From the IMG/VR virus record IMGVR_UViG_3300010885_063646, positions 1 through 62,448 of that record: a stretch of DNA of 62,448 nucleotides; one strand, written 5' to 3'. Position 1 is the stretch's first letter; each line of letters starts with the position of its first letter. Made by a program: the position numbers and the translations under genes. The notes beneath the pieces are model-generated. The model had not been told where the DNA came from. It did not search any database and worked only from the letters and a program-made list of their open reading frames with translations. Shown here piece after piece: positions 3,610-55,395 of this stretch. This DNA is from a virus.

Positions 3610-4289
3610 TTGAATACTACTCCAAGCAACAGTTCGAGGACCTCCATTTCAAGGAGCCGCTGAGTGCTGAAGAAGAACGTCGGCTACTCATCGCGTGGCA
3701 GGCGCAAGGCGACCTTGTCGCAAGGGAAAAGCTGGTCACGTCTTTCGCGCTCTACGTCAGCCGCCTCGCCCACAAGTTCGGTGGGTCGTTCGGCCGGCAC
3801 GACAACAACATCGGGGACTGCATCGGGGTCGCCAACACCGCCCTGCTTGCGGCCATCGACGGGTATGCGCTCGGACGTGCTGACGCACCGCGGTTGACGG
3901 GGCTCATCTACTTGCTGGTTCGCCGGGAGGTCATCAACTTTGTCAAGAAGCAAGAGGCGGGGCAACTGTGCTGGACCTCGGACGTGAGCAAAGCCATCAA
4001 CGAGCTTCCGGCTGAAGAACGCGCAAGCAAGGAAGGTTTGGAGACCCCGTTTGAGTACCCGGACGAAGATTTGTTGTCCCGGGGAGCCGAGGATGAACTC
4101 CTCAAGACACAGCTCACCGCACTCCTCAGCAAGCTGCCGGAAGACGAACAAACCGTCGTCCGCGCCAAGTTTTTTGAGGGTCTGAACTACAAGGACACCG
4201 GCCGCAAGTTCAACCCCGTCAAATCGACGTGGGAGGTGCGCAGGATTTGGAACCAAGCTGCCGCCACCCTGCGATGGGGGCTCACCTGA
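3606..4289 (+). CDS. Sigma-70-like RNA polymerase factor
   Basis: 227 residues with the layout of a small sigma factor. An N-terminal region-2-like helix (AREKLVTSFALYVSRLAH) would bind RNA polymerase and the -10 element. A C-terminal region-4-like helix-turn-helix begins LSKLPEDEQTVVRAKFFEG. GTG at 3606 overlaps the stop of the primase-helicase gene, which fixes the start. The next gene overlaps by TGATG, so translation is probably coupled. It could redirect host RNA polymerase to phage promoters. No phage RNA polymerase is seen in the window. Divergence from known sigma factors is high, so a sigma-derived regulator is also possible. Confidence 0.72.
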   Translation: MIEYYSKQQFEDLHFKEPLSAEEERRLLIAWQAQGDLVAREKLVTSFALYVSRLAHKFGGSFGRHDNNIGDCIGVANTALLAAIDGYALGRADAPRLTGLIYLLVRREVINFVKKQEAGQLCWTSDVSKAINELPAEERASKEGLETPFEYPDEDLLSRGAEDELLKTQLTALLSKLPEDEQTVVRAKFFEGLNYKDTGRKFNPVKSTWEVRRIWNQAAATLRWGLT

Positions 4290-5146: not shown

Positions 5147-5697
5147 GCGACGTTCAACAAGTCCAACATACAGTCAGTCTCCGGGACGGGCTTGACCGGA
5201 CCACCATCCAAGTTGGGATTTGCCTCAACACCATCAAGACTCTGGAGGGTCTGCTGGTCCGTGAGGACTACTACGAGGACGCGGAGACCATCCCGGGACA
5301 AGAAGCGGAGCTTGAAGGCGGTTGCCCCTCTGCGGCAGCGGTGGCGTTCATCGCGACCTGCGACCGCTTGACGCGCCTCATGCAGGACGATACCCGTTTA
5401 ACCAAGATGCCCGAGCCGGGAGGAGCCCTCGCCGTGTACACGGAAGAGTCCAAGGCCCGTACACGCGCTGCAAAAGCAGCGGAAGACGCAAGCCAAGAGA
5501 CCAGACAGGCGGCGGTGGCCTCACGGACTCCGCACGCAAACCTTCGGCCGTCACTGCGGCGCACTCCAGACGGCTGGGCAGCTCTGTACGGAGACGCCAG
5601 CGACGTTGACACCTGTGTCATCGGCACGGGAGCCACTCCGATGGAAGCTCTCCTTGATTTCGACAGAGCCTGCAACATTCCGACCAAAAAACCATGA
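5143..5697 (+). CDS. Hypothetical protein, 184 aa
   Basis: Not recognised. ATG at 5143 overlaps the previous stop, and the stop overlaps the start of the phosphoesterase gene, so it is embedded in the replication operon. The middle (about residues 85-125) is Ala/Lys/Glu-rich and likely helical. The C-terminal part holds DGWAALYGDASDVDTCVIGTG and EALLDFDRA, which resembles small phage proteins that evaluate a query sequence-like beta-alpha unit, but no function can be assigned. The frame extends upstream of 5143, but that portion overlaps the 107-aa gene. Confidence 0.65.
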   Translation: MSDVQQVQHTVSLRDGLDRTTIQVGICLNTIKTLEGLLVREDYYEDAETIPGQEAELEGGCPSAAAVAFIATCDRLTRLMQDDTRLTKMPEPGGALAVYTEESKARTRAAKAAEDASQETRQAAVASRTPHANLRPSLRRTPDGWAALYGDASDVDTCVIGTGATPMEALLDFDRACNIPTKKP

Positions 5698-6848
5698 CGG
5701 CAGAAACCGCACAAATCATCCAAAACCACCTCAAAAATGGTCGCGGGATACAGGAGACCGCCGACATTTGCGGGGTCTCCCGCCACGCTGTTTTCCGGCT
5801 GTCCAAGAAGCTCGCTTTGCCTGCCAAGGCTCTGGCGCAGCCGGAGAAGGTCGACGTCCTGACGGCAGTCCGGCGTGCTCTCCTGACGCCGATGAGCCTG
5901 TCAAAGCTCATCGGCGTCATCGGGGCACCCCCCGCCGCGGTGGATGAAGCACTCAAACAGCTTTCTGCCGAAGGTGTGCTTGGTCAACACGGCGACCTGC
6001 TTTCCATCGAGAAGCCTGCCTTCGGCCGGATTCCACTCAACTTCTTGGACCGCGGCGGCTGGGTCACTGTCGGGCTCGTCGCTGACACCCACCTCGCCTG
6101 CAAGGAGGAGCGTCTGGCCGAGTTGCACGTCATGTACGACCTGTTTGCCAAGGAGGGCATCAAAGAGGTCTTCCACGCCGGCAACATCGTGGATGGGTAC
6201 GTCCCGCGCATCAACGGGGCATCGGTCATCGTCTCCGGGATTGACGACCAAGCACTGTACGTGGTCGACAACTACCCGCAGCGCGCCGGCATCACCACCT
6301 TTTTCATCACCGGCGACGACCACGAGGGTTGGTGGCAGAAAGAGGGTTTCAACTACGGCTGGTACCAGCAACAGGTCGCGGAACGTGAAGGCCGGAAGGA
6401 CTTGAAGTACATCGGCCACGTTGAAGGCGACGTCGCCATCAAGGTGCGCGAGGGTGCCCGGGACGTCATGCTGAAAATCCAGCACCCCGGCGGCGGGAGC
6501 TGCTACGCCCGCAGCTACACCGGCCAGAAACAGGTCGAGGCGTTTCAAGGCGGCGAGAAGCCGGACATCTTGGTGCAAGGGCATTACCACGTCGCCAACT
6601 ACATGCCCGAACGCAACGTGCATGTCATCGGGATGCCGGGCTTCCAGAACCAGACGGTGTTTGCCCGCAAAAAGCGTCTGCGCATGGAGGTCGGTGGCGC
6701 CATCCTCCGATTCAAGACGACCGAGCAGGGCGCCGTGTCCCGGTGCCAAGTCGAGTTCACGATGTTCTACGACCGGGGCTTCTACACGCCCTTCCTGCGC
6801 TCGGACAGTCGCCTCATTCAAGGCAAACTAGCCATCAACAAAGCGTGA
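5694..6848 (+). CDS. HTH-fused calcineurin-like metallophosphoesterase
   Basis: 384 residues. Residues 1-40 resemble a helix-turn-helix (IQETADICGVSRHAVFRLSK), followed by a second winged-helix-like stretch to about 105. The rest is a calcineurin-like phosphoesterase with metal-binding motifs in order: DTH (VADTHLACK), GN (HAGNIVDG), GDDHE (a variant of GNHD), and GHYH near the end (VQGHYHVANY). Such enzymes hydrolyse phosphodiesters, and in phages they are often nucleases or nucleotidases. The DNA-binding-like N-terminus suggests action on DNA. Its start overlaps the preceding gene (ATGA). A terminator candidate follows 114 bp downstream. Confidence 0.82.
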   Translation: MTAETAQIIQNHLKNGRGIQETADICGVSRHAVFRLSKKLALPAKALAQPEKVDVLTAVRRALLTPMSLSKLIGVIGAPPAAVDEALKQLSAEGVLGQHGDLLSIEKPAFGRIPLNFLDRGGWVTVGLVADTHLACKEERLAELHVMYDLFAKEGIKEVFHAGNIVDGYVPRINGASVIVSGIDDQALYVVDNYPQRAGITTFFITGDDHEGWWQKEGFNYGWYQQQVAEREGRKDLKYIGHVEGDVAIKVREGARDVMLKIQHPGGGSCYARSYTGQKQVEAFQGGEKPDILVQGHYHVANYMPERNVHVIGMPGFQNQTVFARKKRLRMEVGGAILRFKTTEQGAVSRCQVEFTMFYDRGFYTPFLRSDSRLIQGKLAINKA

Positions 6849-9531: not shown

Positions 9532-9643
9532 TGGGCTTGAGCAGTTTTCGGGACATGTTGACGAGCCGCTCCAGTTGTTCCGGAGTCAGCTTGAAGTCTT
9601 CGACCTTCAGCGGTTTGTGCAATTTCTGGTCACTTTTTGCCAT
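9509..9643 (-). CDS. 44-residue hypothetical protein
   Basis: A very small gene visible by overlap with both neighbours: its ATG lies inside the last codons of the giant gene (stop 9630) and its TGA lies inside the 191-residue gene (ATG 9531). The product begins MAKSDQKLHKPLKVEDFKL and continues TPEQLERLVNMSRKLL, which is highly charged and amphipathic, likely one or two helices. A GACATTAC element occurs 25 bp upstream of the start. Function unknown. Confidence 0.5.
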   Translation of the reverse strand: MAKSDQKLHKPLKVEDFKLTPEQLERLVNMSRKLLKPNGKKSAD

Positions 9644-12600
9644 ACGCTGAGGATACTCGGGCCTTCGGTGTAATGTCAACCTCGGGCTTGCTCGTCTGGA
9701 GCTGGCCCGCCTCGGTCATTTTGGTCCGGTCCAAGAAGCTCTTGTAGTCGGACTTCTCGGCACCCCGACCGCCTCGGGACCACCCCTTTTCATCCCACAG
9801 GTCCTTCTCCAAGAACCACATGAGAGCCTGAAGAGAGTCCGGCTTGATGCCTATCCGGTCCGCAGCCTTGCGGAACGCTTTCTGGCCGAAAGCAAAGTCA
9901 TGGTCCTGTACGCTCGACTCGTGGTCAGGCGTCAGGCGCCAAGGCTTTCCGGAGTCTTCACTACCAATACGGTGCAGGATGCGGGTCGCCCAGACGTCAA
10001 TTGTGGCCTCGAACGTGGTGCCCGCAAGGTTGCCGGCGAAGTTCGGGGTCTTGGGGCCGGTCACCGTGTCCGCCCAGATGCCGGCGAGCACGTTGAGGAC
10101 TTGACGTCCGTTTTGGCCGAAGTTCTTCCCGTTCTCCTTCAGCGGGACCAAACCGTGCTTTTTCACCCACCAGTTACGCAACCGGGGGACCGGCGTGTCG
10201 GCAAGGTCAGCATCGTCGATGGACACCTTGCCCTTGCTGTCCGCAGCATACTCGGCGAGTAACTCCGGGTCCCGGGCCGCGATGCGGTCGATTCCTTCCT
10301 TGAACTTGGCTAGCTGCGCGTCGTAATCCCCGGCCTTAAACTTGTTGAAGGCTTCGACCGTGTACTTGAAGTTTTCGGCGACCGGCGTTTGGGCCGAGGT
10401 GGCGGCGAGAAGCTGCGTGAAAAACAGGGTGGCATCACCAAGCAGCGGTTGAAGCCGGTCCCGCACGTCGGAGTACCAAGTCTCCGCGGCCTTGATTTCG
10501 GGGCGGTGCGACTCCTGTTTGTGGAGCTGCACAATTTTGTCCGCAAACGCCTCCGCGGCTGCTTCTTCACGGGCATCCCCGCGCAGACCCTTGGCCGCCT
10601 CCTTGTAGAGCGGCGTCGACTCAAAGTCGTATGGCACCTTGATGGGCACGAGGTCTCCATCGGAGTCGAGCTTGAACTGCCCGGTCGCGTCCTTGCGGAA
10701 CTCCAGCGGGATGGCCTCAGGGAACTTCGACTTGACCATCTTGGACCGCTTCGACGCCTGTTGCGCGGGAGTCTCGTCGAGGTCATCAAAGCCGGCCTTG
10801 GCGCGGGCCTTGGGCGAAAAACTGGCGTCGCTCGGGATGACGCTGACGGTGTCGATTGCGTTGCCCCGGCGCCGCTGGATGTCGAAGGACGGACCGAAGA
10901 CCTTCTCACGGAGTCGGACGACGTTTTCGCCGCCGACGATGGTGCCCTTGAGTTCGGTCACACCGGCAGCATTGAGCCGGGTGCCCAGCTCGCGGTACAG
11001 CGCCTCGCCGATGCCCTTTCGTTGATGTGCCTCGTCGACCGAGACGAGCCCGACCATAGCCGAGTCCGGCGAAGTCTGGTTCGCGCTGATGTACCCGATG
11101 GGGCGCTCCTCGCTGTCGAAAACGCGCAGCGTGAACATGCCCGTGCTCGGGATGCTCTCGTCCTTGAAGGCGTAGCCGAGTTCTTCCACCGCGCGGCCGG
11201 AGCCGGTCTTGGGGGAGAAACTCGCCTGTCCAGACATGACGGCCTCCTTGATGGCAGGCGTGATGTCGAGGGAGTGTACTGTCTCACCTCCCGAAATACG
11301 TTGCGCCGCCGCAACAGCATCTGCCTCAGTTTTGAAAGAGGTGGTATCAGCGTGGATATTTCCGTTCTTATCAATGACAACCCACTTGTCACGAGATTTA
11401 TCGAAATACGCTTTGACACCTTGCACGGGACTGACCTTGTCCGTACCCACTTTCTGCCCGCTCTTCTTCACCGCCGGCAGGCCGTTGACGACGTTCTGGA
11501 AGTCAACATTGTACAACTTTCTCAACCCTTCTCCGCCAACATTCAACCCGTCGCCTGTAAACTCCGCACTCTCGTATTCTGGTTTGGCGCTCGCTGAAAT
11601 CTTTGTCACCGCTTGCTCTGCGATTTCCTTTCCGAGAGTGTCTGCAAGCTGTTTCGCGTCCATGTCGCCACCGCGCGGCACGCCGATGCTGCCGCCCTTG
11701 TCGGTCACATGTGCCTGATACTTTCCGTCCTTCGTTCCATTCACGAGGATTCGGTCTACCTGCTTGCTAAGCTGGTATCTTCCTGACTGTTGTTCACCAG
11801 TCGTCCAACCCAGTTTGTCGGCACCCATTTCAACCGCTTTTCGCAGAGCCCACTTGAGTCCGATGTCGCGCCACTTGTCTTGAAACAACTTGGGCATCTT
11901 CTCGAACTGTTCCGGCTGCGGGGCCTGCACTTCTTCAAGGAACAGCATCTTTTTGCCATCCGAGGTGGTGCGCTCGTTGTACCGAAGCCGGGTTACGGGG
12001 TTCTTGACATCGTTGTAGGCCGCGTGGCCATCTTTCCAACCCGACTCGGGTTGCTTCCTTTCAAGAACGTACTTGAGCGCCGCGTCAGACGAAGGGTGCT
12101 TGGCCTTTGGAATCTGGAAGGTCTGTCCCGGGGCGTCGATGACCCAGTACCGCCCACCATCACGAGACGCACTCTCGGCCTCGTTCAGCTTCAGGTTCTC
12201 CTTGGTATAAACGGGCTTGGCCGGGGGCACCGTGAGCAGCACCTCGCGGTAGCTGCCTTCCTTGCCGCCGTGAATTTGGTACGAATCGAACTTTGTTCCA
12301 ATCTCGCGACGATGGGCAGCGTCCGCGTCACCCTCGCGGAGGTGGACAAATTTCTCGACGCCGTCCCGGAAAGTGCCGTTGTCAAACGTGACCAAGGTCG
12401 TTTGATTCGGGTTGTTCTTCGGGACTCCGTACACCTTTCCGCCCGATGCAAGGATTGCCTTCGCCCGCTCCACACTTAGGTTTGGGTCGCCACCCAACGT
12501 CACGTCCTTGACAACAATCTGGTTGGCCTTGAGGTAGTCGAGCACCTCCGACTTGGTATAAACCTTGCCGTCTTCCAAGTCGCCGACGCCGACCAAGTCG

Positions 12601-15600
12601 TACTCGCCACGAGACGTGCCGAGTTTCGAGTTCTGGATGAGCGACTTCCACTGCGCGCCGGTGGCCTTGCCTTGCTGCGACTCTTCGACTGTCCGGTTGA
12701 GGCGAGAGTAGAACGCGGGGCGCTCTTCTGTGGGTGCCGGCTGTTCGCCTGCCTTGGGGGAAAAACTGGCCGCATCCTTCGGCACCGTCGCTTTCTTCAG
12801 GGGCTTCGGGGAAATCCCCAGTGCCGTTGGTGCCGTCTTCTCGAACAACGCCACCACATCGCGACCGCTAGACTTGACGCGGAGGCCCGTGTAGCCGGCA
12901 TCGCGCAGTTTCTGGTCGGCCTTCTCGCGGTTGACCTCGCCCAGCCAATTGAGGGGGTCGCTGTTGCGGGTCAGGTCATAAATGCCGCCGCCATGCGCCC
13001 GGACACCGTAGGACGGCCGAACCGTCAAGTTGGCGTCCGCACCGGTGCCGCTGCCCTCGACGAAGTAGTAGGTCTTTGGCAGGCCGCGCCGGTCCGTCGC
13101 CGTGGCTGCCGCGGTGCCGAACTTCTTCGGGTCGAGCACGTCCAGATTGCCGCCGTGGCCCGAGTAATGCAGCAGGCGCAGGTCCTTGTCGCCGACGGAG
13201 TCGGGCAACGGCGGCCTGCGGACGAGCTGCGGGGTGCCGGGCTCGGGCTTGATGGTGTCACGCTCTTCCTGACGGGCCGGCTCGGCTTTGCGGGCAGCCT
13301 TGCGCGCCTCATACTCCGCCATTGTGGGCATGAAGCTGGTAGCCTCAGCAACGAGCTTGGGCGGCAGCAGGGCGGCCTTTTGTTCCGCGTAGGGACGTTC
13401 GGTGACGGGGAGGTAGTCGGCGTCGCCCTTGACCGGCAGAGAGCCGTCCTTGCGCCGAAGGTGCTCCCCGTAGTTCACCCAACTGTTCTGGCCCAAGGTC
13501 TCCGCAGCGAGTGCTTGGACTGCATCCTCCGAAAACATCCGAGCGTGCGCGAGGTACGCATTGTACTCGCCCCGCGGACCGAACTCGTAGCCTTCCTTGG
13601 CGTGACCGAAAAAGTCATGCACTGCCCGGAAGATGTCGTTGACCGGAACATTTTTGCCGCCAACGGATACCCCCGAAGGAGTAAGCATCGGGTGGTCAAC
13701 TACGGCACCCCCTTGACCATACCCTTGCTCGGTCGGGAAATACCACAGGTGCTTGTTGTCCGCGACGTCGACCCGCATGTCCGCGGAGTTGCGATACGGT
13801 TGCCCCGACTGCTCCCAAGGCTCCATCGTGTACCCGGCCGCCTTGATGGCTTCCCACTGCGCCTTGGTCTCCGCTGCGAGCGCCGAGTATGCCTTCCGCA
13901 CCGCGGGGTCGTTCGGGGCGTCCTTTGCCGCTTGGTACGCGTCCGCCAACCGCTTCGCCCGGGATTCGTCGACAGTCGCGTAGCCACGGAATGCGGACTT
14001 CGTGATGCCGCTCCCGCGGATGTACTCGTCCGCGATTCCCCGGACCTTGTCTGAGCCCTTGGGCTGGCTCACGTCGGGCATGAACCCGGCGCGAATCAGG
14101 TCCGTGCTCGGCGCGCGGAATCCGGACTCCGGGCGGCCAGTCACTTTCTTGATGTTCTCAAGGTTCAGCTCCTCCGTCACCTTGAAGAGTCCGGCCTCCG
14201 TAACATCCACCCCCCGCGCAGCGAGCCGGTCCCGCAGCGGGTTGGTCTCCGCAATGGGGAGGTTGTTGCGCGTGTAAACGTCTTTGCCCGGTTCCGCGGT
14301 CCGGGAAGGCACCACCGGGCGCTGGTTTGCCTCGGCGAGCCTGCGTGCCTCGATGTTCGGCACCACCGGCTTGGTTTTGCTGCCCTTCGTGGTCTTGGGC
14401 GGGGCAAGGCCCATGACCAAGTTCACGTAGTCGGCGCGTTCCTTCGGAAGAGTGACTGGACGAAAAGTGGGGTTCTCGTCGGGGATGATGCCTTGGTAAT
14501 CGGCTGGCCGTGCAACGCGGGAGCCGTCTCCACCGTAACCGTTCGCTTGGTTGCGCGTGTAGACCTCAAGGTCCGTCACGAACTGCCGAGACGCCTCCGG
14601 GGTAAACCCGCCATCGGGCCGCAGCGCGTAGGGGACCTCACCCTCCGCGCCTTTGCCGACGATGCGCTTGTTGATGACGTCCGAGTTCGCCAGCACCTTG
14701 TCGAGCGACATCGCCAACAGGTTGACGTTCGACCCGCGGGTCTGCCACCGGTACGGGACCGCGACCTTGTCGACCAAGATGCGCACGTCTGCGGGCAGCT
14801 TTCCGAGTGCTTCTTGGATGTACGCTGCGTCCTGTTCCACTTTCCGGGCTCGGGCATCAGTGCCGCTGTTGCCGGTCGGCGTGACCGACTCATAGTCGAT
14901 GGTCAGCGGTGCGACGTCTCCTTGGCTCCGCGATAGTGACCGGTTGACCTGCTCAAAAATTGCAACTTCTTTTTTGCCGTACTTCGGGTTCGACATCAAC
15001 CCGATGGCCGCGTCTTCGATGCCGGCGCCCTTGGCCACCTTGTCGAGTTCTGCCTGCCGCGCCGGGTCGACGCGGATGTTGCGGCGCGGCGCGATGGACT
15101 CCGGGGCTGCGGCCGGCGTCTCGATGACCGGAGCGGGGGCTTCCAATCCAATCTCCTTGATGCCACGCGACGCGACCTCGGCGGCCTTGAAGCCGGGCTC
15201 GACACCGAGAGCACTCGCGGTAGGCGAAGTGCCGGGCTCGCGGATTTCCGGGGTCCGGACACCGAGTTTTTCAAGCCCCCGGCCGACAAGGTCTGCCACC
15301 GTTCGGAGAATCGTCGGCTTGACCGTGCCAAGACCGTCGGCATTGATGACCTTGCTGAGGACTTCCGCAGCGACCTCGTGCAGCACCCAGTCCGGGTTGC
15401 TCGCCGCGGCTGGGTTTTCGGCACCTTTGAGGGCTGCGGTGTACATTTCCCCGAACTGCCCAAGCTGCTCGGGGGTGTAGCTGTCGCGCAAAGTTTGCAG
15501 GAACTCCGCTCGGGCCTCGGGTGCGAGCAACTGGAAAACCGCGTGGCCGACCTCATGGCCAAGCGCGGTCGTGTCCCCGTTCAGGAAAATCTTGTCCCCG

Positions 15601-17306
15601 CTGACGTACCCGTTGGTGTTGTACTCCGACAGCGGCGTCCGCCCGGCCGCGGCTTCCGCTTCGCCAACCTGCTTGTCGTAGACGTCCTTCGGGAGCAGGT
15701 AGACCTCGATTCCCTTCTTGCGGACCACCTCACGGATATGGTTGAGCTGGTTCGCGTCCTTCTCATCCACCACCTTGATTTGCCGGTCGTGGGCGACATC
15801 GAGCGCCGGAATGGTCCCGAAGCCCTCGCTGGTTTGCTTGACGGCGTCGAACTGCTTGAAGCGTGCGCGGACTGCCTGAAGCGCAGCCTCGCGCGGTACG
15901 TCCTTGAGCCCCGCCGCCGTGCCGCCAAGAGCGCCAAAGACGGCACCGCCTGCAACGATACCGGACGCTTCGTCAGGAGTTTCTGCGCCAGCGAGGAACG
16001 GGACTGACGCTGTGGCACCGTGGAGCGCACCCTCGACCACCGGGAAAACGGTGCGTGCGGCCGAACCCGCAACGGTCGGGGAGGACAACACAGTGTCGAG
16101 AGCGTTGACCATCCGGCCGTTGCCAATCGCGGACGCGGCTTTGCCGGCCAGCTTGGTGCCCTTCTCGACGGCCTTGAGAGTGAGCGACGGACCAGCTCCT
16201 GCCAGAACGCTGGCTTCCTCCTTGATGAACTTGTTCACCACGCCGGTGCCTTTGCTCGTCATGGTCAGGCCGCGACCCGCCATGGTGGCGGATGCGTCAC
16301 CAAGCCGGGTGAGCTTCTGCAACAACGTCTGCGCTGCCTCCTTGCCGGATGCGACCGCAAGTGTCTTGCCGGCAGCTTCGACGGCAAAAAATCCTCGCGC
16401 CATCGGAACCAAGTTGACCGGGTCCAGCAGCAACTGCCAGCTCGCGATGTTTGCCGGATTGAGCGTGACGCCGTCCTTGGCCAACGATTCTGGGTCGAGC
16501 CCGGTCCACGCGGGGAGGGCCTCGCCCTTGGCGGCAGCGAGCAACGTGGACTTGATGGCCGCATCCTCTTGGAGGTGCGCCTCAAGCTCGTCGTCCGTCA
16601 GTTGCTTCGGGTCACCGACAAGTTTCTTCAGGACCTTCTGCGGGTCGAGCGGCCCGAGCGATTTCAGGGGGTTGATGTCCGTCAGCGTTGGGTTGTTCGC
16701 GATATTGCGAACCCCCGTCCGGACAAGGTTGGCCATGCTTCCCGCTGCGGAAGTCGCCCCCGAGACGGCTTCACCTACGAACGTCTGAGCCTCTTTTTCG
16801 TCAGGCGTGAGGGGCTCGTCGGGGTTGCCCCAGTTCTTCTTGATGGCCAACCGCGCCAGCGAAAACGGAGGTAGCTTGTCGTAAGCGACCAAGGTCTTAC
16901 CGACCCCGACGACGCTATCCCAAACGTGCCCCGCATCGGCTGCAACCCCCGCCGCCGTGGGCATCTTGAAGCCAGACTGGAGCTGCTTCCGGTACGCGTC
17001 CAGATACCGCTTTCGCAGCACCGGGTCGCCTTGGATGAGTTCTTGGTGCTCTGCCCAAGTCGACGCGATGTCGCTATCCTGAAGCTCCTCGGCTGAGACC
17101 GGTTTGACCGTGGAGACGTCGTAGCCAGCGTCGGCGGACGGCCCGACGGGAGTCACGGTCGAGGCGTCATACCCTTCATCCGCCGCCGGCCCGACGGGAG
17201 TCAATGTCGAGACGTCGTAACCTTCATCCGCCGCCGGCTGCGGGCGGGAAAGGATGGCCTTGATAGCGGTCGGGGACCACGGAGCGTGCGGAGCTTGGGT
17301 TGCCAT
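9630..17306 (-). CDS. Giant polyvalent protein (metallopeptidase, ART-like, GNAT), 2558 aa
   Basis: Probable ejected multi-domain protein. ATG 17306 overlaps the previous stop (TGATG). In order: three 15-17-residue repeats around GYDVST (29-71); Ala/Gly-rich helical part; metallopeptidase with HEVGH near 584; phage domain with FRAVHDFFGHA and a later ETLGQNSWVN (1104-1290) that could bind metal; ADP-ribosyltransferase-like domain (LRLLHYSGHGG ... DVVALFE, 1370-1490); a large phage domain ending in a WTTGEQQSGRYQLSK signature (1530-1960); GNAT acetyltransferase (VDEAHQRKGIGEALY, about 2090); a C-terminal domain with LLAATSAQTP (2170-2556). SFSPK linkers occur near 1513, 2029 and 2160. This matches the phage polyvalent protein class, thought to be injected to act on host targets. 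The whole-protein call is firm, and individual domain functions are inferred. Confidence 0.88.
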   Translation of the reverse strand: MATQAPHAPWSPTAIKAILSRPQPAADEGYDVSTLTPVGPAADEGYDASTVTPVGPSADAGYDVSTVKPVSAEELQDSDIASTWAEHQELIQGDPVLRKRYLDAYRKQLQSGFKMPTAAGVAADAGHVWDSVVGVGKTLVAYDKLPPFSLARLAIKKNWGNPDEPLTPDEKEAQTFVGEAVSGATSAAGSMANLVRTGVRNIANNPTLTDINPLKSLGPLDPQKVLKKLVGDPKQLTDDELEAHLQEDAAIKSTLLAAAKGEALPAWTGLDPESLAKDGVTLNPANIASWQLLLDPVNLVPMARGFFAVEAAGKTLAVASGKEAAQTLLQKLTRLGDASATMAGRGLTMTSKGTGVVNKFIKEEASVLAGAGPSLTLKAVEKGTKLAGKAASAIGNGRMVNALDTVLSSPTVAGSAARTVFPVVEGALHGATASVPFLAGAETPDEASGIVAGGAVFGALGGTAAGLKDVPREAALQAVRARFKQFDAVKQTSEGFGTIPALDVAHDRQIKVVDEKDANQLNHIREVVRKKGIEVYLLPKDVYDKQVGEAEAAAGRTPLSEYNTNGYVSGDKIFLNGDTTALGHEVGHAVFQLLAPEARAEFLQTLRDSYTPEQLGQFGEMYTAALKGAENPAAASNPDWVLHEVAAEVLSKVINADGLGTVKPTILRTVADLVGRGLEKLGVRTPEIREPGTSPTASALGVEPGFKAAEVASRGIKEIGLEAPAPVIETPAAAPESIAPRRNIRVDPARQAELDKVAKGAGIEDAAIGLMSNPKYGKKEVAIFEQVNRSLSRSQGDVAPLTIDYESVTPTGNSGTDARARKVEQDAAYIQEALGKLPADVRILVDKVAVPYRWQTRGSNVNLLAMSLDKVLANSDVINKRIVGKGAEGEVPYALRPDGGFTPEASRQFVTDLEVYTRNQANGYGGDGSRVARPADYQGIIPDENPTFRPVTLPKERADYVNLVMGLAPPKTTKGSKTKPVVPNIEARRLAEANQRPVVPSRTAEPGKDVYTRNNLPIAETNPLRDRLAARGVDVTEAGLFKVTEELNLENIKKVTGRPESGFRAPSTDLIRAGFMPDVSQPKGSDKVRGIADEYIRGSGITKSAFRGYATVDESRAKRLADAYQAAKDAPNDPAVRKAYSALAAETKAQWEAIKAAGYTMEPWEQSGQPYRNSADMRVDVADNKHLWYFPTEQGYGQGGAVVDHPMLTPSGVSVGGKNVPVNDIFRAVHDFFGHAKEGYEFGPRGEYNAYLAHARMFSEDAVQALAAETLGQNSWVNYGEHLRRKDGSLPVKGDADYLPVTERPYAEQKAALLPPKLVAEATSFMPTMAEYEARKAARKAEPARQEERDTIKPEPGTPQLVRRPPLPDSVGDKDLRLLHYSGHGGNLDVLDPKKFGTAAATATDRRGLPKTYYFVEGSGTGADANLTVRPSYGVRAHGGGIYDLTRNSDPLNWLGEVNREKADQKLRDAGYTGLRVKSSGRDVVALFEKTAPTALGISPKPLKKATVPKDAASFSPKAGEQPAPTEERPAFYSRLNRTVEESQQGKATGAQWKSLIQNSKLGTSRGEYDLVGVGDLEDGKVYTKSEVLDYLKANQIVVKDVTLGGDPNLSVERAKAILASGGKVYGVPKNNPNQTTLVTFDNGTFRDGVEKFVHLREGDADAAHRREIGTKFDSYQIHGGKEGSYREVLLTVPPAKPVYTKENLKLNEAESASRDGGRYWVIDAPGQTFQIPKAKHPSSDAALKYVLERKQPESGWKDGHAAYNDVKNPVTRLRYNERTTSDGKKMLFLEEVQAPQPEQFEKMPKLFQDKWRDIGLKWALRKAVEMGADKLGWTTGEQQSGRYQLSKQVDRILVNGTKDGKYQAHVTDKGGSIGVPRGGDMDAKQLADTLGKEIAEQAVTKISASAKPEYESAEFTGDGLNVGGEGLRKLYNVDFQNVVNGLPAVKKSGQKVGTDKVSPVQGVKAYFDKSRDKWVVIDKNGNIHADTTSFKTEADAVAAAQRISGGETVHSLDITPAIKEAVMSGQASFSPKTGSGRAVEELGYAFKDESIPSTGMFTLRVFDSEERPIGYISANQTSPDSAMVGLVSVDEAHQRKGIGEALYRELGTRLNAAGVTELKGTIVGGENVVRLREKVFGPSFDIQRRRGNAIDTVSVIPSDASFSPKARAKAGFDDLDETPAQQASKRSKMVKSKFPEAIPLEFRKDATGQFKLDSDGDLVPIKVPYDFESTPLYKEAAKGLRGDAREEAAAEAFADKIVQLHKQESHRPEIKAAETWYSDVRDRLQPLLGDATLFFTQLLAATSAQTPVAENFKYTVEAFNKFKAGDYDAQLAKFKEGIDRIAARDPELLAEYAADSKGKVSIDDADLADTPVPRLRNWWVKKHGLVPLKENGKNFGQNGRQVLNVLAGIWADTVTGPKTPNFAGNLAGTTFEATIDVWATRILHRIGSEDSGKPWRLTPDHESSVQDHDFAFGQKAFRKAADRIGIKPDSLQALMWFLEKDLWDEKGWSRGGRGAEKSDYKSFLDRTKMTEAGQLQTSKPEVDITPKARVSSAYGKK

Positions 17307-18646
17307 CAGGGTACGTCGTTGACCGGAATAATCTTGTCTGGGTTCGCCGGATTTCTCCGACCAAATCCGCGGAATGCGGGCCGACCGTTCAAGGCCGGGA
17401 AGTTCCACTCTTCAAGGCCGGCTGAGGCCTTCTTCGAGGGTGCCGCCGGCTTTGCGTCCGAGAGGTACTGAAGGTCGTCTGGAGTGAAGACATGCGCAAG
17501 CGGGACATCGTGATACCGAGCCAACAATGCCTGCCGTTCTGCAAGGTTCGCAAACGTCTTTTTCTGCCCGTCGAAAGCCTGCCGCCCTGCCGCGAGAATC
17601 TCTGCTCGTTGTTCCGGAGCCAATATGTTGCCGGCCTTAGCCTTTTCAAAGTACGTCGTGAATTGGTCCTTCCATCCCGCCGTTTTTTTGATTGTGTCGT
17701 AGTCGTTGTCCGTGACCCTCGCACCCGGGTCCAAGATTTTCATGTACGAGAATATCATGGAGACGTCGTCCGAGGCACTCGGCTTCGCGTTGTCTCCTGC
17801 ATTTTTCAGTTTGTTGAACGACGCTTGGACTGTCCGGAAGTTTTTGACTTCAGGGGAGTCATCGAACTCCTTGCGTATTCCGGACGCGACGTCCATGGGG
17901 TCCTTCTGCTTGCCCAACTGCATGAGTTGGAGCGCCTGTGCGTGCTCCCGCTTCCGCAGTTCTGCAACCTTCTGCGCAAGCTGCGGCAAGGTAAGTGTGC
18001 CAGCGGGGACGTCGAGTTCTCCCGCCGTGCTGAGGACACCCTCGTAGAGCGCCTTGGTGCCCGCGGGGTCGTTCGCTCTCCGGTGCAACTCATCCGAGAA
18101 AATGGTCCATTTGTCCTCGTCGGCCTTGAGTATGCCTTGAACCCGGCCCAGATTCGCTTTGGCCTGCGCCCTTTCCACGTCGTTGTTTGCCTTGGCAATC
18201 TCGCCTTGACCTTCGAGAAGAGACGCCTCGTTCTTGAGTTTGACGACCTTATTGGTGCGTTCTATCCCAGAGAGGCCGAACTCGTCCATCTGGTCCCGCA
18301 GGGAGGCGCGCTTCACCGCCGTTGCCTCGCCGAGGAGGCCGCTGTTCGCGCCAGCGGTATCGGCACCAAGCGTGTCCTCGGCAATCTTTCGCCGGGTGTT
18401 CGCCGGGCGTGCTTCAATGTTTGCCGCGGACTGGCTGATGGTGTCCTCGTTCGTGGCCACCGCTGCCCTCCGTTTGGACGGCTGGACGGTGATGTTGTCG
18501 ATGATGTCGCTGGTGTCGAGGAATCCCGACTTGAACGCGGCATGCAATTTGCCGATGGCGTCCAGCGAGTCGGTCTGCTGCGGCGCCGGGACGGCCATGA
18601 TGTCACCGCCCGAGATTCGACCGCCTTGGTCTGCGTAGGTAGGCAT
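17306..18646 (-). CDS. Internal virion (DNA-ejection) protein, 446 aa
   Basis: Likely inner-core or ejection protein of a podovirus-type particle. The first 200 residues are helical and charged. The middle contains a segment typical of this class (SMIFSYMKILDPGARV, then TDNDYDTIKKTAGW) followed by a helical LxPEQRAEIL stretch. The C-terminal 50 residues are basic and Pro/Gly-rich. It lies between the 322-residue membrane-active candidate and the giant polyvalent protein, the same order as internal proteins in other podoviruses. Starts are tightly packed (2-bp gap upstream, TGATG overlap downstream). Confidence 0.7.
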   Translation of the reverse strand: MPTYADQGGRISGGDIMAVPAPQQTDSLDAIGKLHAAFKSGFLDTSDIIDNITVQPSKRRAAVATNEDTISQSAANIEARPANTRRKIAEDTLGADTAGANSGLLGEATAVKRASLRDQMDEFGLSGIERTNKVVKLKNEASLLEGQGEIAKANNDVERAQAKANLGRVQGILKADEDKWTIFSDELHRRANDPAGTKALYEGVLSTAGELDVPAGTLTLPQLAQKVAELRKREHAQALQLMQLGKQKDPMDVASGIRKEFDDSPEVKNFRTVQASFNKLKNAGDNAKPSASDDVSMIFSYMKILDPGARVTDNDYDTIKKTAGWKDQFTTYFEKAKAGNILAPEQRAEILAAGRQAFDGQKKTFANLAERQALLARYHDVPLAHVFTPDDLQYLSDAKPAAPSKKASAGLEEWNFPALNGRPAFRGFGRRNPANPDKIIPVNDVP

Positions 18647-18648
18647 AT

Positions 18649-19617
18649 TCAGAACATTCCCTTGCCGGTGCCGTAGCCGTTCGCTGCGCCGCCGGTTTTA
18701 GCTGCGCCGGAGGCGGCTCCTCCTGCGTTGTACGCACCGAGACCCGCGCCGAGTCCGCTGCCGACAGCTCCGATTGCAGACGAGTAGAAAGAAGCGTCGG
18801 CCAGCGACTTTTGAGCTTGTGCGTCCCCGAGCCCGGCCAGTTTCTGATTCTCGTTCTTGATGCGGTCAAGTTCAAGCCCGGCCGTCTGGATGCCGCTGAG
18901 TCCGTAGTTCGGCAGGGCCTCCTGCGCGGTCTGGAATCCGGCTTGAGCACGCGCCATCCGGGCCGCGGGGATGTTGTTGAGGGTCGGAATCAGATTCTGG
19001 AGAATGGCCGCACGCGAGGACGCAAGGGTCGAGGCTCCTCCTGCTTCCGCAAGCGCCGATTGTACCCGCTGCTGCTTGAGCGCCTGCCCGGCAGCTCCGA
19101 GGACTTGCCGGGTGCTGCGGCCGGCGGCTCCGTTGGGGTTCGAGCTGACGCCGGTGGCTCCTGCGCGTTCAAGCCCGGTCCGCACCAATTCCGCCTGAAA
19201 ATCTGCCGGGAGGGTAGAGCCGGCATCGAGCTGCGCTTGCGCGTCGGCAAGCAGTTTCTGCTTCAGAGCCTTGGTGCCCGCGTCATCAATGTTCTCGTTG
19301 TAGAGCTGGCCGGAAATGGAGTCGACCAATCCGTCGGTTGCCTGCGGGCCGGATAAATCCGCGAGCCTCTGGGCCGAGTTCTCTCGCAACTTGGCGAGGG
19401 CCGGGTCGACTTGCCGCTGAAGGTCAAGAGTGCCCTTGTATTTCTCGGTGTCCGCGGTCCGGGCCATCTGCTGGATTTCCGGGACGTTGATAGACGTCAT
19501 CTTATTGATGGCGTCTGCCCGCGCGTTCGCAGCCGACTTCGCGCCTTGCGCGCCCATGTACGCGGACCCAATGGTGGCTGCGGTGCCTACTGCGACTGCG
19601 GTGATGGCGAGACTCAT
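18649..19617 (-). CDS. Internal virion protein with N-terminal hydrophobic segment, 322 aa
   Basis: The N-terminus (ITAVAVGTAATIGSAYMGAQ) is a Gly/Ala-rich hydrophobic helix. It is followed by a long Ala/Gln-rich helical region with MTSINVPEIQQMA and LQRQVDPALAKL, and by a Gly/Ala-rich C-terminus (residues 280-322). This composition and order are usual for the small ejection protein that helps form the trans-envelope channel in podoviruses. ATGA overlap with the cupin-like gene upstream. Not the tail nozzle, which is encoded at 21464. Confidence 0.68.
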   Translation of the reverse strand: MSLAITAVAVGTAATIGSAYMGAQGAKSAANARADAINKMTSINVPEIQQMARTADTEKYKGTLDLQRQVDPALAKLRENSAQRLADLSGPQATDGLVDSISGQLYNENIDDAGTKALKQKLLADAQAQLDAGSTLPADFQAELVRTGLERAGATGVSSNPNGAAGRSTRQVLGAAGQALKQQRVQSALAEAGGASTLASSRAAILQNLIPTLNNIPAARMARAQAGFQTAQEALPNYGLSGIQTAGLELDRIKNENQKLAGLGDAQAQKSLADASFYSSAIGAVGSGLGAGLGAYNAGGAASGAAKTGGAANGYGTGKGMF

Positions 19618-20075
19618 TCGGTTTTTCCTTCTGTGAGCAGGCCCTTCAATTCGGCCGCTTGCAGCTCGGTGATTTTCAACAGCGGTTCAACCAACATGTC
19701 CTCTAGTTTAGCTGGGTCCTGCTCATCTGTCGGGTTCGCGTGGACCGTCCCCCAGACCATTTCCTCGTGGACAATGGCCACTTTGTTCACTCCGACGCCC
19801 GACGGGATGACCGCCGGAGCCGTGAGGTGCCGGACGACCCCTTCGACCAAGACCGTGACCTTCCCACGCAGCAAAAAATTCAGGAAAGCCGTCTTGTGGC
19901 AACGCCCGATGACGAAGGTGCCACTAGGCACAGTGAACTCCCGGTAGTACACGCCGGGGGCAAAAAGGTGTCGTACCGGACACGGGACCTGTTCCTCCTC
20001 CAGACAGCGATGCGCAAAAGTTTCGATTTCCTCGCGGGAAATCAAACGCTTTGCGAGTTCGTAGCTGTCGCTCAT
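19614..20075 (-). CDS. Cupin-fold phage protein, 153 aa
   Basis: The central part reads as a small beta-barrel cupin: a string of short strands (GVYYREFTVPSGTFVIG, TAFLNFLLRGKVTVLVEGVV) with glycines at the turns, and an ending helix (ITELQAAELKGLL). Cupin-like proteins of this size occur in phage late operons, often as virion or tail-associated proteins without enzyme activity. The metal-binding HxH of enzymatic cupins is not obvious. The start at 20075 follows a GACATTACC element by 7 bp. Overlaps the ejection gene downstream. Confidence 0.65.
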   Translation of the reverse strand: MSDSYELAKRLISREEIETFAHRCLEEEQVPCPVRHLFAPGVYYREFTVPSGTFVIGRCHKTAFLNFLLRGKVTVLVEGVVRHLTAPAVIPSGVGVNKVAIVHEEMVWGTVHANPTDEQDPAKLEDMLVEPLLKITELQAAELKGLLTEGKTE

Positions 20076-21113: not shown

Positions 21114-21467
21114 TCAGGTTCCGACGGTCAAGGTGGCTTCAGCACTTTGGATGCTGCCGACGATGTTCGTCACCACTACGGTGAACGTCCCGGCATCGGC
21201 CGCGCTCACGTTTGCCAACACCAAGGGGATGTTGGTAGCCCCGATGATGGCGGTGTTGTTCTTGCGCCACTGGAACGTGATGGGCAACGTACCGGACGCG
21301 GCCACGGAGAACGTCGCGGTGGCGCCGGGTGCCGCGGTCTGGCTCTGCGGTTGGGTGACGATGGTGAGTGTCGGCGGCGTTACCTCGCCCGCGGGACGCA
21401 GCACCGGCATCGTGTAAACGCCCGGGACCGCGACCAGCCCAGAACTCAGAAGGACGTCAGGTTTCAA
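21114..21467 (-). CDS. Ig-like domain virion protein, 117 aa
   Basis: Residues 35-115 form one bacterial Ig-like domain: TIVTQPQSQTAAPGATATF, then TFQWRKNNTAIIGATN, VSAADAGTFTVVVTN and a closing ATLTV strand. The conserved Trp, DAGTF and final strand are intact. Ig-like domains decorate phage capsids and tails and promote weak binding to carbohydrates. The exact sequence style is that of the abundant Ig repeats in Verrucomicrobiota proteins, which is a clue to the host. ATGA-type overlap with the nozzle gene at 21464 fixes its place in the tail cluster. Confidence 0.78.
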   Translation of the reverse strand: MKPDVLLSSGLVAVPGVYTMPVLRPAGEVTPPTLTIVTQPQSQTAAPGATATFSVAASGTLPITFQWRKNNTAIIGATNIPLVLANVSAADAGTFTVVVTNIVGSIQSAEATLTVGT

Positions 21468-23422
21468 CTGATGCCTCCATAGACCTTGGGGGCCAATTCC
21501 GCAAGCTCGTGGTCCACTTGGGCTGCCGCGGCCTGCTTCGCCTGCTTGAGCGCCGCCTCAGGGCTCACGGCACTCACCGCATGTCCTGCTGCGGTCCGAG
21601 TCATACCCCGAGCCGTTCCGGTGTAGGCTGCGTCTGCCGAGTACGTGCCCGAGGACGACTCAGACAGGACTTCCGGGTTGCGTGAGGTCGAACCGTTCCT
21701 CCGGGCGTAGCTCGTGACCTCTGGTGCGCTGAAGGCATCGCCGGTGTTCGACTCCGGCTCTTGTGCCTCGGTGAAGAACCGGGCCTGACGGACGCCGGCT
21801 TGCCCGCTCCATCGGATGAGGTGCTGAAACGAAAAATCGAGCTGCTCCGAGCGCGGTTCCTCAATGCCGTCCGAAGACAACGGGTCGGTCTCCGCGGCGT
21901 TCTCCAGCTCTTGGGTCCTCAGCACTCGGGACTGGACGCCGCCTTCAGCCAGCAACGTGGTCGGGGTAACCGTCATGCCCATGCTGACCACCGGGCAGCC
22001 CCCGGTCGAGAACGTCCGAAGCTGGCTGCGTTTGTACCTCCCGCGGTTGGTGCCGCGCCAGTACATGGCCACGTTCACGTCGTGTGCGACGTCCACAAAC
22101 GACGCCTCCAGAAACCGGTTGCGCTTGAGCTGGCTCGTACCACCGGAGTATCCGCGCAGCTCCAACGCAGCCTCGATGTCCTGCCCGTTGTCCGTCCGAC
22201 CTTGGAAGCCTTCCCAGACTGAATTGTTCCCTTCCGCGTCGGACATGAGCCCGTAGATGCGGTCTGCGCCCTCCACGTTGACCGCCGCCCAGTCCGACAC
22301 GTTGAAACCTGTCCAAATGCTGGACCAGACCGGGTTCGTGGTCTGCACCAACGTGCTGAGGACAGAATTGTCGAGCACCCAAGTGTGGACGTTGTCGTTG
22401 CCACCGAAGGGCACGCTGACCAACAGAAAATTTTCAAAACTCCCGATGACGACCTTGTTCAGCGCCGAGTCGACCCGGGCCTTGTCGTCCGCCATTTCGT
22501 TATCCGCCGAGCGCATCGAGGACGAGACGAAGGTCTGTGCGGCGTAGTTCAAGTTCGTCAGTCCGCGCCCGGACATCCACCACAAGATGCCGAATTGTTC
22601 CCGCACGGACCGAGAGCTGACGCATCCGACATCTGGGAAAATCTTCGATTGAAAATTTGCGGTATTGGCCCACAAGTCGCGGTTGCGGTTGCTGGTCGCA
22701 AACGCGGACGCGGACCGGGCCGTGAACGCAATCATCTGCGAGCTGCCGGTGAGCGCCGACGTCTCCGTCATCGCCGTGACGTTATCTTCCAGATAGAACG
22801 CGTCACTTCCGCCGAGGTAGTACTGCTCGGTAAAGTTGAACGGGTCCAGAATGTTGCTGGCCAGAATCCGGTTCCGGTTCGCCACCCAGAGCCGGCTACC
22901 GGTCCATATCATCGGGCCGCCTTGCGGAGTTTTGTCCAACCCGGTGATGTGCCCGTTCTTGGAGCCGTCGTAGTACGCCGGCGGGGCGTCCCCGTCCTGC
23001 ATGAACAACACCCGGCGCGGGTTCACGAACGAGTTCGAGTTGTCGGAATTAAGGGTCACCGCCTGCTCGGTGAGTGCGAAGAAGACGGTCTCCTTGTACG
23101 GGTCGAACTTGATGTTCGGGAGCTGGACAAAACTGTTGTAGGGGTATGACGAAACGTGGACGTACCCGGCGATGACCGCGACGAGCTGCGGCATCCCGAT
23201 GAGCGGCAAGAACACCGTGAAGCCCTGCCGGCGCCCCGCAGGCAAATCAGCGCGCCAACGGAACCCGGGGCGCGTAGAAACGACCCCGCGCCGGTTGATG
23301 GTGTTCCACGCGCGGCAGTACGTGCCCGGCTGAAGCATGGTCGGGTCGACCGAGGAGTTCATACCCCCCGGGAACGCCACGTCGCCGTCGAGCGGCGGGA
23401 AAACGATGTCGGAGCGACTCAT
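21464..23422 (-). CDS. Tail nozzle (tubular protein B-like), 652 aa
   Basis: The N-terminus has the pattern typical of podovirus nozzle proteins: FPGGMNSSVDPTMLQPGTYC, then RAWNTINRRGVVSTRPGF. The body is beta-rich with many Asn/Trp/Tyr and typical propeller-like stretches (VYFHVN-type, GSRLWVANRNRILASNI). The C-terminal 90 residues are polar and Ala-rich. It is directly downstream of the adaptor-like gene and upstream of the internal proteins, as in T7-like and related phages (gp11-gp12-internal proteins). Length is also right for the family. Confidence 0.72.
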   Translation of the reverse strand: MSRSDIVFPPLDGDVAFPGGMNSSVDPTMLQPGTYCRAWNTINRRGVVSTRPGFRWRADLPAGRRQGFTVFLPLIGMPQLVAVIAGYVHVSSYPYNSFVQLPNIKFDPYKETVFFALTEQAVTLNSDNSNSFVNPRRVLFMQDGDAPPAYYDGSKNGHITGLDKTPQGGPMIWTGSRLWVANRNRILASNILDPFNFTEQYYLGGSDAFYLEDNVTAMTETSALTGSSQMIAFTARSASAFATSNRNRDLWANTANFQSKIFPDVGCVSSRSVREQFGILWWMSGRGLTNLNYAAQTFVSSSMRSADNEMADDKARVDSALNKVVIGSFENFLLVSVPFGGNDNVHTWVLDNSVLSTLVQTTNPVWSSIWTGFNVSDWAAVNVEGADRIYGLMSDAEGNNSVWEGFQGRTDNGQDIEAALELRGYSGGTSQLKRNRFLEASFVDVAHDVNVAMYWRGTNRGRYKRSQLRTFSTGGCPVVSMGMTVTPTTLLAEGGVQSRVLRTQELENAAETDPLSSDGIEEPRSEQLDFSFQHLIRWSGQAGVRQARFFTEAQEPESNTGDAFSAPEVTSYARRNGSTSRNPEVLSESSSGTYSADAAYTGTARGMTRTAAGHAVSAVSPEAALKQAKQAAAAQVDHELAELAPKVYGGIS

Positions 23423-33219: not shown

Positions 33220-34464
33220 TTAGATGGAGCCGCCGGTGTACGGCAACGGCGCGGTGTGCTCGCACGCGACGAGGCCGAGGTCGGCGTCGCAGCGAGCGTA
33301 GACGATGGGCACGACGTGCTGCGGGCGGATGGGGCGGTACGCGCGGGTGATTTGGAACTTGTGGAAGCCGAAGTCCCCGTACACGTTGCAGTCGTTGTCC
33401 ACCTGATAGTGCCAGTCGAGTTCACCCATGTGGAGCTGCGGGGCGAACTTGAAACTGCCCTCGCCAACGTACTTCTCGGGCACCAGACGCTCGAAGGTGT
33501 TTTCGGCAATGAGGAAGCCCATCTCGTAGGCCGCCGCCAACCAGACCGGGTTGCGCTTCCGGGAACCCTTGTGGGTGACGACGTCGATGGTCGTGGTGTC
33601 GGGCTCGATGAAGTTCGGGACACCATTGGTCATGGTGTTGAACCGCAGCGGGGTCTGGTCGATGCCGAGCGAAATGCCGCGGTACGCCGGGGCGCTGGCA
33701 AACGAGTACGCAGACAGCGAGACCTCGCCCAATTTGTACCCACCAGTCGTCAGACCGACGAGCACGTCCTTGACGCCGACCTCATCCCGGAACGCCTCGA
33801 CGATGTCCGCGGAACCGATAAAACGGAAACTCGCATCGAGACCGGTGCCGCCGAACATGTCGGCGAACAAGGCTTCTTTGAGATGCCGGGCGACCTTGTG
33901 AAGGGCCGCGAACGTGAGCCGGGCGGAAGGAAGGACGTGCGCAAACGGAATACCGACGTTGTTCTGCTCACCACCGGTGAACATGTCGGAGAACTTGTAG
34001 CCGGCCGCGGCGTTGTACTTCGACGCCGACTTGGCGTAGAGCTGGTACTTGATGTCGGAGTTGATGTACTGGGTGATGAGCTTGGTCAGCGCATCCTCCG
34101 CCATCGTGTAACTCGACTTGAACGCGGCGCGGCCGTCCTTGACGCACACCCGGGGGCCGAAGCCACGCAGGGTCTGGAGACGGAACAGATACTCGACCGT
34201 GTCGGTGAGGTTCTGGCTGCCGTACTGGCCGCAGACGTCGGTATCGTTGGTGAACTCCGGCGCGACGAGCGAGTCACCCGCGGCAGCCGGAAGCTGCACG
34301 ACGGAGCGGACTTGGTCGGAGATACCGTTCGCGAAGGTGCCACCTTTGAGCACGTTCATAAACGGAGAGTTGGCTGCGAGAGCCTTCGCGATGGTACCAA
34401 TGACACGGTTGGTGTCCTTGGTCGCGAAATTGGAAGCATCGGCCTGCGTGAAACAATCGCCCAT
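33220..34464 (-). CDS. Major capsid protein (probable), 414 aa
   Basis: The best capsid candidate by size, composition and place: it follows portal and scaffold genes, has a long 140-bp leader of its own, and is followed at once by a terminator hairpin. The sequence has a flexible N-terminal arm, a helical spine-like segment (DIKYQLYAKSASKYNAAAG, LTFAALHKVARHLKEALFA) and a beta-rich C-terminus (VGEGSFKFAPQLHMGELDW). Several phage HK97-fold proteins share this plan. No protease cleavage site is obvious. The gene ends in GGSI, matching the 75-residue protein. Confidence 0.72.
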   Translation of the reverse strand: MGDCFTQADASNFATKDTNRVIGTIAKALAANSPFMNVLKGGTFANGISDQVRSVVQLPAAAGDSLVAPEFTNDTDVCGQYGSQNLTDTVEYLFRLQTLRGFGPRVCVKDGRAAFKSSYTMAEDALTKLITQYINSDIKYQLYAKSASKYNAAAGYKFSDMFTGGEQNNVGIPFAHVLPSARLTFAALHKVARHLKEALFADMFGGTGLDASFRFIGSADIVEAFRDEVGVKDVLVGLTTGGYKLGEVSLSAYSFASAPAYRGISLGIDQTPLRFNTMTNGVPNFIEPDTTTIDVVTHKGSRKRNPVWLAAAYEMGFLIAENTFERLVPEKYVGEGSFKFAPQLHMGELDWHYQVDNDCNVYGDFGFHKFQITRAYRPIRPQHVVPIVYARCDADLGLVACEHTAPLPYTGGSI

Positions 34465-42300: not shown

Positions 42301-42375
42301 TGGGAGCAGGGGACGGAATCGAACCGCCGACGGTGTGGTTATGGGCCACATGAACTACCACTGTTCTACCCTGCT
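42301..42375 (-). tRNA. tRNA-Met (CAU), CCA encoded
   Basis: All arms fold: acceptor AGCAGGG/CCCTGCT, D-stem GAAC/GTTC, anticodon stem TGTGG/CCACA with loop CCCATAA (anticodon CAT), T-stem GGCGG/CCGTC with loop TTCGATT, and encoded discriminator plus CCA. It may be elongator Met, or an Ile-type CAU if lysidine-modified. It cannot be an initiator on present evidence. It lies in the gap between the 46-residue gene and the 92-residue gene. Confidence 0.9.
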
Positions 42376-53260: not shown

Positions 53261-53314
53261 CCGACGCGCAACACCGAGAATCAGGCCGCCATGGGGAAAA
53301 CCTCGTGGCGGCCC

Positions 53315-53343
53315 TTCGAGGTGAAAGCACAACGCGTTTACAC
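53315..53343 (+). promoter_or_regulatory. Weak promoter candidate before GDP-fucose genes
   Basis: TTCGAG (53315-53320), 17-bp spacer, TTACAC (53338-53343), then 7 bp to ATG 53351. Same geometry as the other elements but poor boxes. Confidence 0.22.
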
Positions 53344-53350
53344 GATACAG

Positions 53351-54283: not shown

Positions 54284-54308
54284 CTGTTTCAACCACGTTT
54301 TACACTAT

Positions 54309-55325: not shown

Positions 55326-55395
55326 GGGTTGACAGGGTCAAAAAAACGTCCATCGTCACACACGCCGATTGGTACGCCGGCAAGAAAAAATCAAA

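Follow-up and report, generated by a model that had tools for sequence, protein, structure and literature searches.

Polyvalent proteins, as described by Iyer et al. in 2017, are very large phage proteins that join several unrelated enzyme domains and are encoded next to virion genes; in the text of that article searched here, zincin-like HExxH metallopeptidase, ADP-ribosyltransferase (ART) and GNAT domains are already found in them, and the idea of autoproteolysis is already raised (PMC5512222). The virion RNA polymerase of phage N4 is likewise of giant size and ejected, and it contains an HExxH domain as well as flexible linkers (PMC12633501); phage P22 injects its gp16 into the host (PMC8402733). 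Here we consider a gene of the virus recorded in IMG/VR as IMGVR_UViG_3300010885_063646, whose whole stretch of 62,448 nucleotides is called the window below. Located at 9630..17306 on the minus strand, this gene encodes a protein of 2,558 residues, hereafter the giant, which fits the definition of polyvalent proteins given by Iyer et al. (2017) and thus belongs to an already known class. It appears rather probable that the giant is injected, that it takes the place of the gene-16 ejection protein of P22, and that short peptides repeated between its domains are functional tags.

The frame runs from an ATG at 17306 to a stop at 9630, and the plus strand is closed in the same frame. An earlier examination of the letters, called the sequence-only reading here, had given the coordinates and the length correctly and had left the strand unstated. 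The start codon of the giant and the stop codon of the gene upstream, which encodes 446 residues, overlap. Considering the length of the open frame and the conserved homologues found in dozens of viral contigs, the gene cannot be a product of chance. All the motifs picked out beforehand were located: HEVGH at residues 584-588, FRAVHDFFGH at 1226-1235, the QRKGIG of a GNAT region at 2095, and an ART-like segment. Direct library matches are few. In Pfam, DUF7178 (E 9e-12) and GNAT (E 1.6e-6) are recognized, the best values being obtained with 400-residue segments, and no other family passes its curated cut-off; thus, the Pfam check proposed for ART-PolyVal, GNAT and metallopeptidase families returned the second but neither of the other two. 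PHROGs contributes phrog_3170 at residues 1120-1281 (E 2e-17), annotated as of unknown function, and a PDB sequence search with the whole protein gave no match. The remaining domains were therefore worked out from relatives. Overall, the chain combines at least two unrelated activities, a GNAT recognized by Pfam and a glycosylase fold, together with a domain named FGHA after its motif.

Relatives of the FGHA region are widespread. A tblastn search of 50,697 phage records gave matches in cyanophages and mycobacteriophages, among others, most of them to the FRAVHDFFGHA region, and a scan of IMG/VR returned at least 588 viral relatives of this region, of which 80 were kept. An order of four regions, HExxH, a segment called 'mid', FGHA and the C-terminal domain C1, is common to the viral contigs L011-L013, L014, L015, L018-L019, L023, L025 and L031. 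This core is shared by at least seven other viral contigs, where the upstream genes are mostly the same. About 25 distinct giants contain both FGHA and C1, and in all of these except one FGHA comes first. Between them lies a variable cassette, which in the window contains ART, a module called FYS, and GNAT. The cassette of L014 carries an ART-PolyVal and a second ART, that of L025 a histidine phosphatase, an ART and a DUF3293, and that of L068 an ART and an FYS, while in L023 a GNAT is placed before FGHA. The suspicion that the domain order may be new is therefore only partly borne out: the core order is common to relatives and the series FGHA-ART-FYS is also found in the Microcystis phage Mel-JY33, but the complete order was not seen among the sequences examined.

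The genomic setting argues for an ejection protein. Both tblastn (E 6e-4) and profile-profile comparison (probability 96 percent, E 1e-9) relate the upstream 446-residue gene (17306..18646, minus strand) to gp20, an ejection protein of the P22-like phage SEN22; a virion protein of Mx8 is a further relative (profile probability 97 percent). The 446-residue gene is preceded, in the position of gp7, by a gene of 322 residues (18649..19617, minus strand), which relatives also keep upstream of the giant gene. The succession in the window, 322-residue gene, gp20-like gene, giant, corresponds to the order gp7, gp20, gp16 of SEN22 and P22, and the block g317-g322-g446-giant recurs in relatives. With a gp20-like neighbour and a matching order, the giant gene stands where gene 16 stands in P22, so that injection from the virion is the likely setting. 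By analogy, the giant is likely delivered into the host from the virion, and the sequence-only reading, which had seen in it a polyvalent ejection protein, is supported on this point. The gp16 proteins of P22-like phages are far shorter (609-691 residues), and no sequence match links them to the N-terminus of the giant. In other phages too, FGHA is found near virion genes, which adds to the case for an injected protein: in Mel-JY33 and ctQRb9 the giants that contain it come after genes for tail proteins and lysozyme, and in mycobacteriophage Sebata an FGHA protein lies among head genes. Near the gp20-like gene, a tail fibre-like gene is found at 19614-20075. Labels of tail tubular, portal and capsid proteins given by eye to neighbouring genes were unconfirmed and are not used as evidence. 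Several large genes of the leftward unit (38860-40899, 33223-34464, 21467-23422 and 42817-44871, all on the minus strand) have no match in PHROGs or in the phage records; to judge from their sequences, these are genes of a very divergent virion.

A further link with ejection proteins is found at the N-terminus. Residues 24-71 (17094..17237, minus strand) form a triple tandem repeat of three 16-residue units, PAADEGYDVSTxTPVG. No other internal repeat of the giant scores as high (45, against 25 elsewhere), and the synonymous codons of the units are close to random. Repeat scores of at least 33 were observed at the N-termini of 23 of the 60 complete giants, a level reached by 5 of 221 control genes and by no C-terminus out of 60; the corresponding Fisher p of 3e-13 is over-optimistic, since sequences that are related to one another do not count as wholly separate observations. 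In composition, Phe, Pro and Asp are abundant in the units while Lys and Arg are scarce, the scoring favouring some of these residues. SEN22 gp16 and Mx8 p57 carry an N-terminal repeat too. A natural guess, by analogy with the P22 scaffold that recruits ejection proteins (PMC8402733), is that the repeat would be a docking motif. The repeats are thus a candidate packaging or ejection signal common to many giants. They are followed by an Ala/Gly-rich and poorly conserved region (residues 72-500; 15807..17093, minus strand), with a single weakly hydrophobic segment at 447-468.

The boundaries of the cassette carry a second kind of repeated peptide. The exact hexamer ASFSPK occurs three times on the minus strand, at the ART/FYS boundary (residues 1513-1518; 12753..12770), the FYS/GNAT boundary (2028-2033; 11208..11225) and the GNAT/C1 boundary (2161-2166; 10809..10826), and in none of 1000 local shuffles did any hexamer reach three copies. 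In addition, FMP is found on both edges of FGHA. In relatives, an unbiased search for repeated hexamers, from which homologous duplications were filtered out, gave FMPE (L014), QFKP (L031), QFxP (L025), QFQP (L015), DDIRRMPE (L044), TNLKP (L033), RYMPE (L052), NRLPEP (L074), YSP (L016) and LFMPA (L134). Of 85 giants, 22 beat all of 20 shuffles, where 4.0 were expected, and about half of the tags in these 22 are of the Phi-x-P kind. In 10 proteins, 36 copies of tags were counted and none falls inside a mapped domain, compared with 14.1 expected, the list of copies having been drawn by hand from the search results and not as a blind test. A plain count of exact 4-mers was of low power. To the extent that sequence statistics can tell, the tags are real in a subset of giants and are not universal. 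In the Mel-JY33 giant (L003:6944-18982), inspection by eye shows LFQ ahead of domains, at residues about 813, 1604 and 2724, a different tag of the same kind.

How could such a protein work? In the mechanism that we envisage, the N-terminal part and its repeats would serve for entry of the giant into the procapsid or for its exit through the tail, together with its gp20-like and gp7-like partners. Inside the host, its domains, like beads, would act separately: ART and GNAT would modify host proteins, and damaged or modified bases in DNA would be the targets of the glycosylase domain. The tags, lying between the beads, would be recognition sites, and separation of the beads by proteolysis seems somewhat likelier than binding of a packaging or ejection partner. 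The giant's own HExxH domain, or another protease, would be the candidate cutter. A short recognition motif of comparable kind is known in ejected head proteins, the AXE motif of the SPN3US prohead protease gp245 (PMC10052503). Self-processing by zincin domains was predicted in 2017, no cleavage sites being named in the peptidase section of PMC5512222, and the tags now supply exact candidate sites that can be tested.

Several observations weigh against this proposal. The 446-residue gene matches gp20 of SEN22 but not that of P22, hence the resemblance concerns a part of the protein that is mosaic, and an N-terminal repeat was not found in the gp16 of P22 or of T7. In a test set in advance on 40 FYS-bearing giants, the excess of tag recurrences is modest (26 against 15.1, standard deviation 4.0), and in the 20-shuffle test the giant of the window did not exceed all shuffles with its own tag score, although it did in the exact-hexamer test. 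In L011, the catalytic Glu of the metallopeptidase motif is replaced, giving HDxxH instead of HExxH, and tags are still present. Finally, the polyvalent relative studied in most detail, the virion RNA polymerase of N4, is packaged in one piece despite its HExxH domain (PMC5512222). Taken alone, cleavage at the linkers is thus put forward only tentatively, as something that we would sooner doubt than assert. The fate of the N4 protein, with its visible linkers (PMC12633501), favours an alternative in which the giant is an uncut tool-kit working as a single chain, the Phi-x-P tags docking a packaging, unfolding or ejection partner that guides each bead. The recruitment of ejection proteins by the P22 scaffold would fit such docking, as would tags that are protein-specific and located in linkers. 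However, the giant has its tags mainly in the half that contains the cassette, and most of the N-terminal half, the expected place for a packaging signal, is devoid of them; we regard this alternative as unlikely. A more ambitious version of the cleavage idea, rather less credible, would make polyvalent giants true polyproteins, each with its own punctuation tag (ASFSPK here; FMPE, QFKP, RYMPEK, TNLKP or DDIRRMPE elsewhere), matched to a protease or ejection factor of its own, and with another, repeated tag at the N-terminus for entry into the virion or exit from it.

Codon usage bears on whether the peptides have any role. It may be imagined that the tags are mere joints for recombination, left by domain swapping between phages, in keeping with the varying content of the cassette. 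The tag DNA is indeed nearly identical in L044 (19 of 21 codons alike, 8.0 predicted), and in the window 12 of 18 codons are alike where usage predicts 7.4, so recent duplication contributes to the very tags under discussion, which again counts against a purely functional origin. Nevertheless, in 6 of 12 proteins (L014, L031, L025, L033, L015 and L074) the tag codons are as mixed as codon usage predicts; with near-random synonymous codons, the peptide has been kept there and is not a recent copy of DNA. Moreover, relatives carry different peptides at the same domain boundary. Recombination joints without a role are therefore improbable as an explanation. Still less credit can be given to the idea that the giant is not injected at all but is a cytoplasmic late protein merely adjoining virion genes. 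For the majority of the structural genes in this phage no relatives can be recognized, which leaves some room for it, but the position after the gp20-like gene, the conserved block, and N-terminal repeats shared with the slot proteins SEN22 gp16 and Mx8 p57 all speak for injection.

The individual domains are supported to various extents. The HExxH region (15237..15794, minus strand) contains H584, E585 and H588. In an alignment of eight family proteins, both His and two downstream Glu, E644 and E648, are invariant. No significant Pfam or PDB profile match was obtained, weak profile matches being restricted to other HExxH regions of phage giants. A match to the virion RNA polymerase gene of a Rhizobium phage was dropped, as it lies on the opposite strand of that gene. 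On the basis of the conserved residues and weak profile matches, the region is likely a metallopeptidase, as the sequence-only reading had suggested, even though the library searches did not confirm it. No RNA polymerase domain was recognized in the giant, a difference from the N4 protein. The 'mid' region (residues 760-1030; 14217..15029, minus strand) is conserved in close relatives and has no known match.

The FGHA domain (residues 1072-1318; 13353..14093, minus strand) is real and widespread. In an alignment of 48 relatives, H1230, D1231, H1235, H1254, E1269 and Q1273 are invariant, and these residues, together with a helical model, point to a helical fold that holds a metal site. No PDB match was found for this fold, which was modelled only jointly with C1, so that the fold may yet be a known one. 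The HDxxGH spacing recalls that of aromatic amino acid hydroxylases, and no support for such an assignment was found. Matches to MATCAP are weak and sub-threshold, seen with few relatives and in the N-terminal part only.

C1 (residues 2217-2522; 9741..10658, minus strand), which corresponds to DUF7178, had been overlooked in the sequence-only reading. A profile of 27 C1 sequences compared with the PDB pointed to the Thermotoga 8-oxoguanine glycosylase 3n0u (E 0.015). In the AlphaFold2 model of FGHA plus C1 from L023 (pLDDT 84.5), a relative that shares 40 percent identity with the window in C1, five HhH-GPD glycosylases head the VIA list (Z 10.2, 9.6, 7.2, 6.5 and 6.5). K2419 and D2437, 18 residues apart, are invariant in all 27 sequences, and a Lys-Asp pair at such a spacing is expected in the HhH-GPD superfamily. 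As judged from the model of this relative, C1/DUF7178 has an HhH-GPD DNA-glycosylase fold. The 8-oxoguanine DNA glycosylase-lyases of Methanocaldococcus and Thermotoga (3knt, 3n0u) share the fold and the Lys/Asp spacing, whereas the identity with C1 is only about 12-16 percent. The label 'glycosylase' is already present in some mycobacteriophage annotations.

In the cassette, the ART-like domain (residues 1367-1499; 12810..13208, minus strand) includes the segment LLHYS...TYYF...DVVALF, spanning residues 1378-1488. Of the residues that mark the H-Y-D type, the His of strand 1 (H1380) is invariant within a family of nine, and positions for the Tyr of strand 2 and the final acidic residue are plausible without being invariant. 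The match to the ART-PolyVal profile is weak but specific (probability 28 percent, controls 0.1-0.2). The domain is likely an ART of the polyvalent type: the expected His and a conserved family are there, even if the profile match is not strong. The GNAT domain (residues 2040-2154; 10845..11189, minus strand), already announced by the sequence-only reading, is confirmed by Pfam PF00583, Acetyltransf_1 (28.8 bits, cut-off 20.7), with QRKGIG as its Q/RxxGxG loop. A second GNAT-fold domain, passed over earlier among 'other phage-specific domains', is the FYS module (residues 1532-2025; 11232..12713, minus strand), which has at least 449 viral relatives. With an AlphaFold2 model of the window FYS (pLDDT 79), the top VIA rows are all GNAT-type acetyltransferases (Z 8.0-10.1 over 107-149 residues); Foldseek E-values are weak, none being below 0.001, and Pfam recognized no GNAT in 46 members scanned. 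According to the model, this uncharacterized module of about 500 residues has a GNAT fold with large insertions, degenerate in the window. Relatives have a QSDWHQxGR stretch, read as the acetyl-CoA binding loop, where the window has QAPQPEQF, and with the loss of this stretch the FYS of the giant may be inactive.

Compared with the description of 2017, the present analysis adds a core combining FGHA with a glycosylase fold, and the GNAT-fold FYS module. In the searched text of PMC5512222, FGHA, linkers and crystallin-type names are not mentioned, and a limited literature search found no mention of the linker tags, FGHA or the N-terminal repeats. Folds for DUF7178 and for a very common phage module should help in annotating hundreds of viral proteins. 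The closest parallel in a named phage is the Mel-JY33 giant (4,012 residues, annotated as a lysin, after tail tubular and lysozyme genes), which has the same order of FGHA, ART and FYS but differs by the absence of a C1 match, a late HExxH and its other linker tag.

Other genes of the window may be briefly mentioned. On the plus strand, an open reading frame of 264 residues (3495-4289) matches sigma-70 region 4 in Pfam (E 2.7e-6) and is a possible phage-encoded sigma factor; the gene at 1381-3609 matches DUF5906 (E 3e-8) and would possibly be a replication gene of the primase/helicase type; and that at 5694-6848 encodes a calcineurin-like phosphoesterase with an N-terminal helix-turn-helix match. 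An NAD-dependent epimerase gene adjoining a GDP-mannose 4,6-dehydratase gene (53291-55325, plus strand) suggests synthesis of GDP-sugars by the phage, and a Thy1-type thymidylate synthase match (E 1.6e-10) is found at 55369-56367 on the same strand. A single tRNA gene, tRNA-Met (CAT), is located at 42301-42375 on the minus strand.

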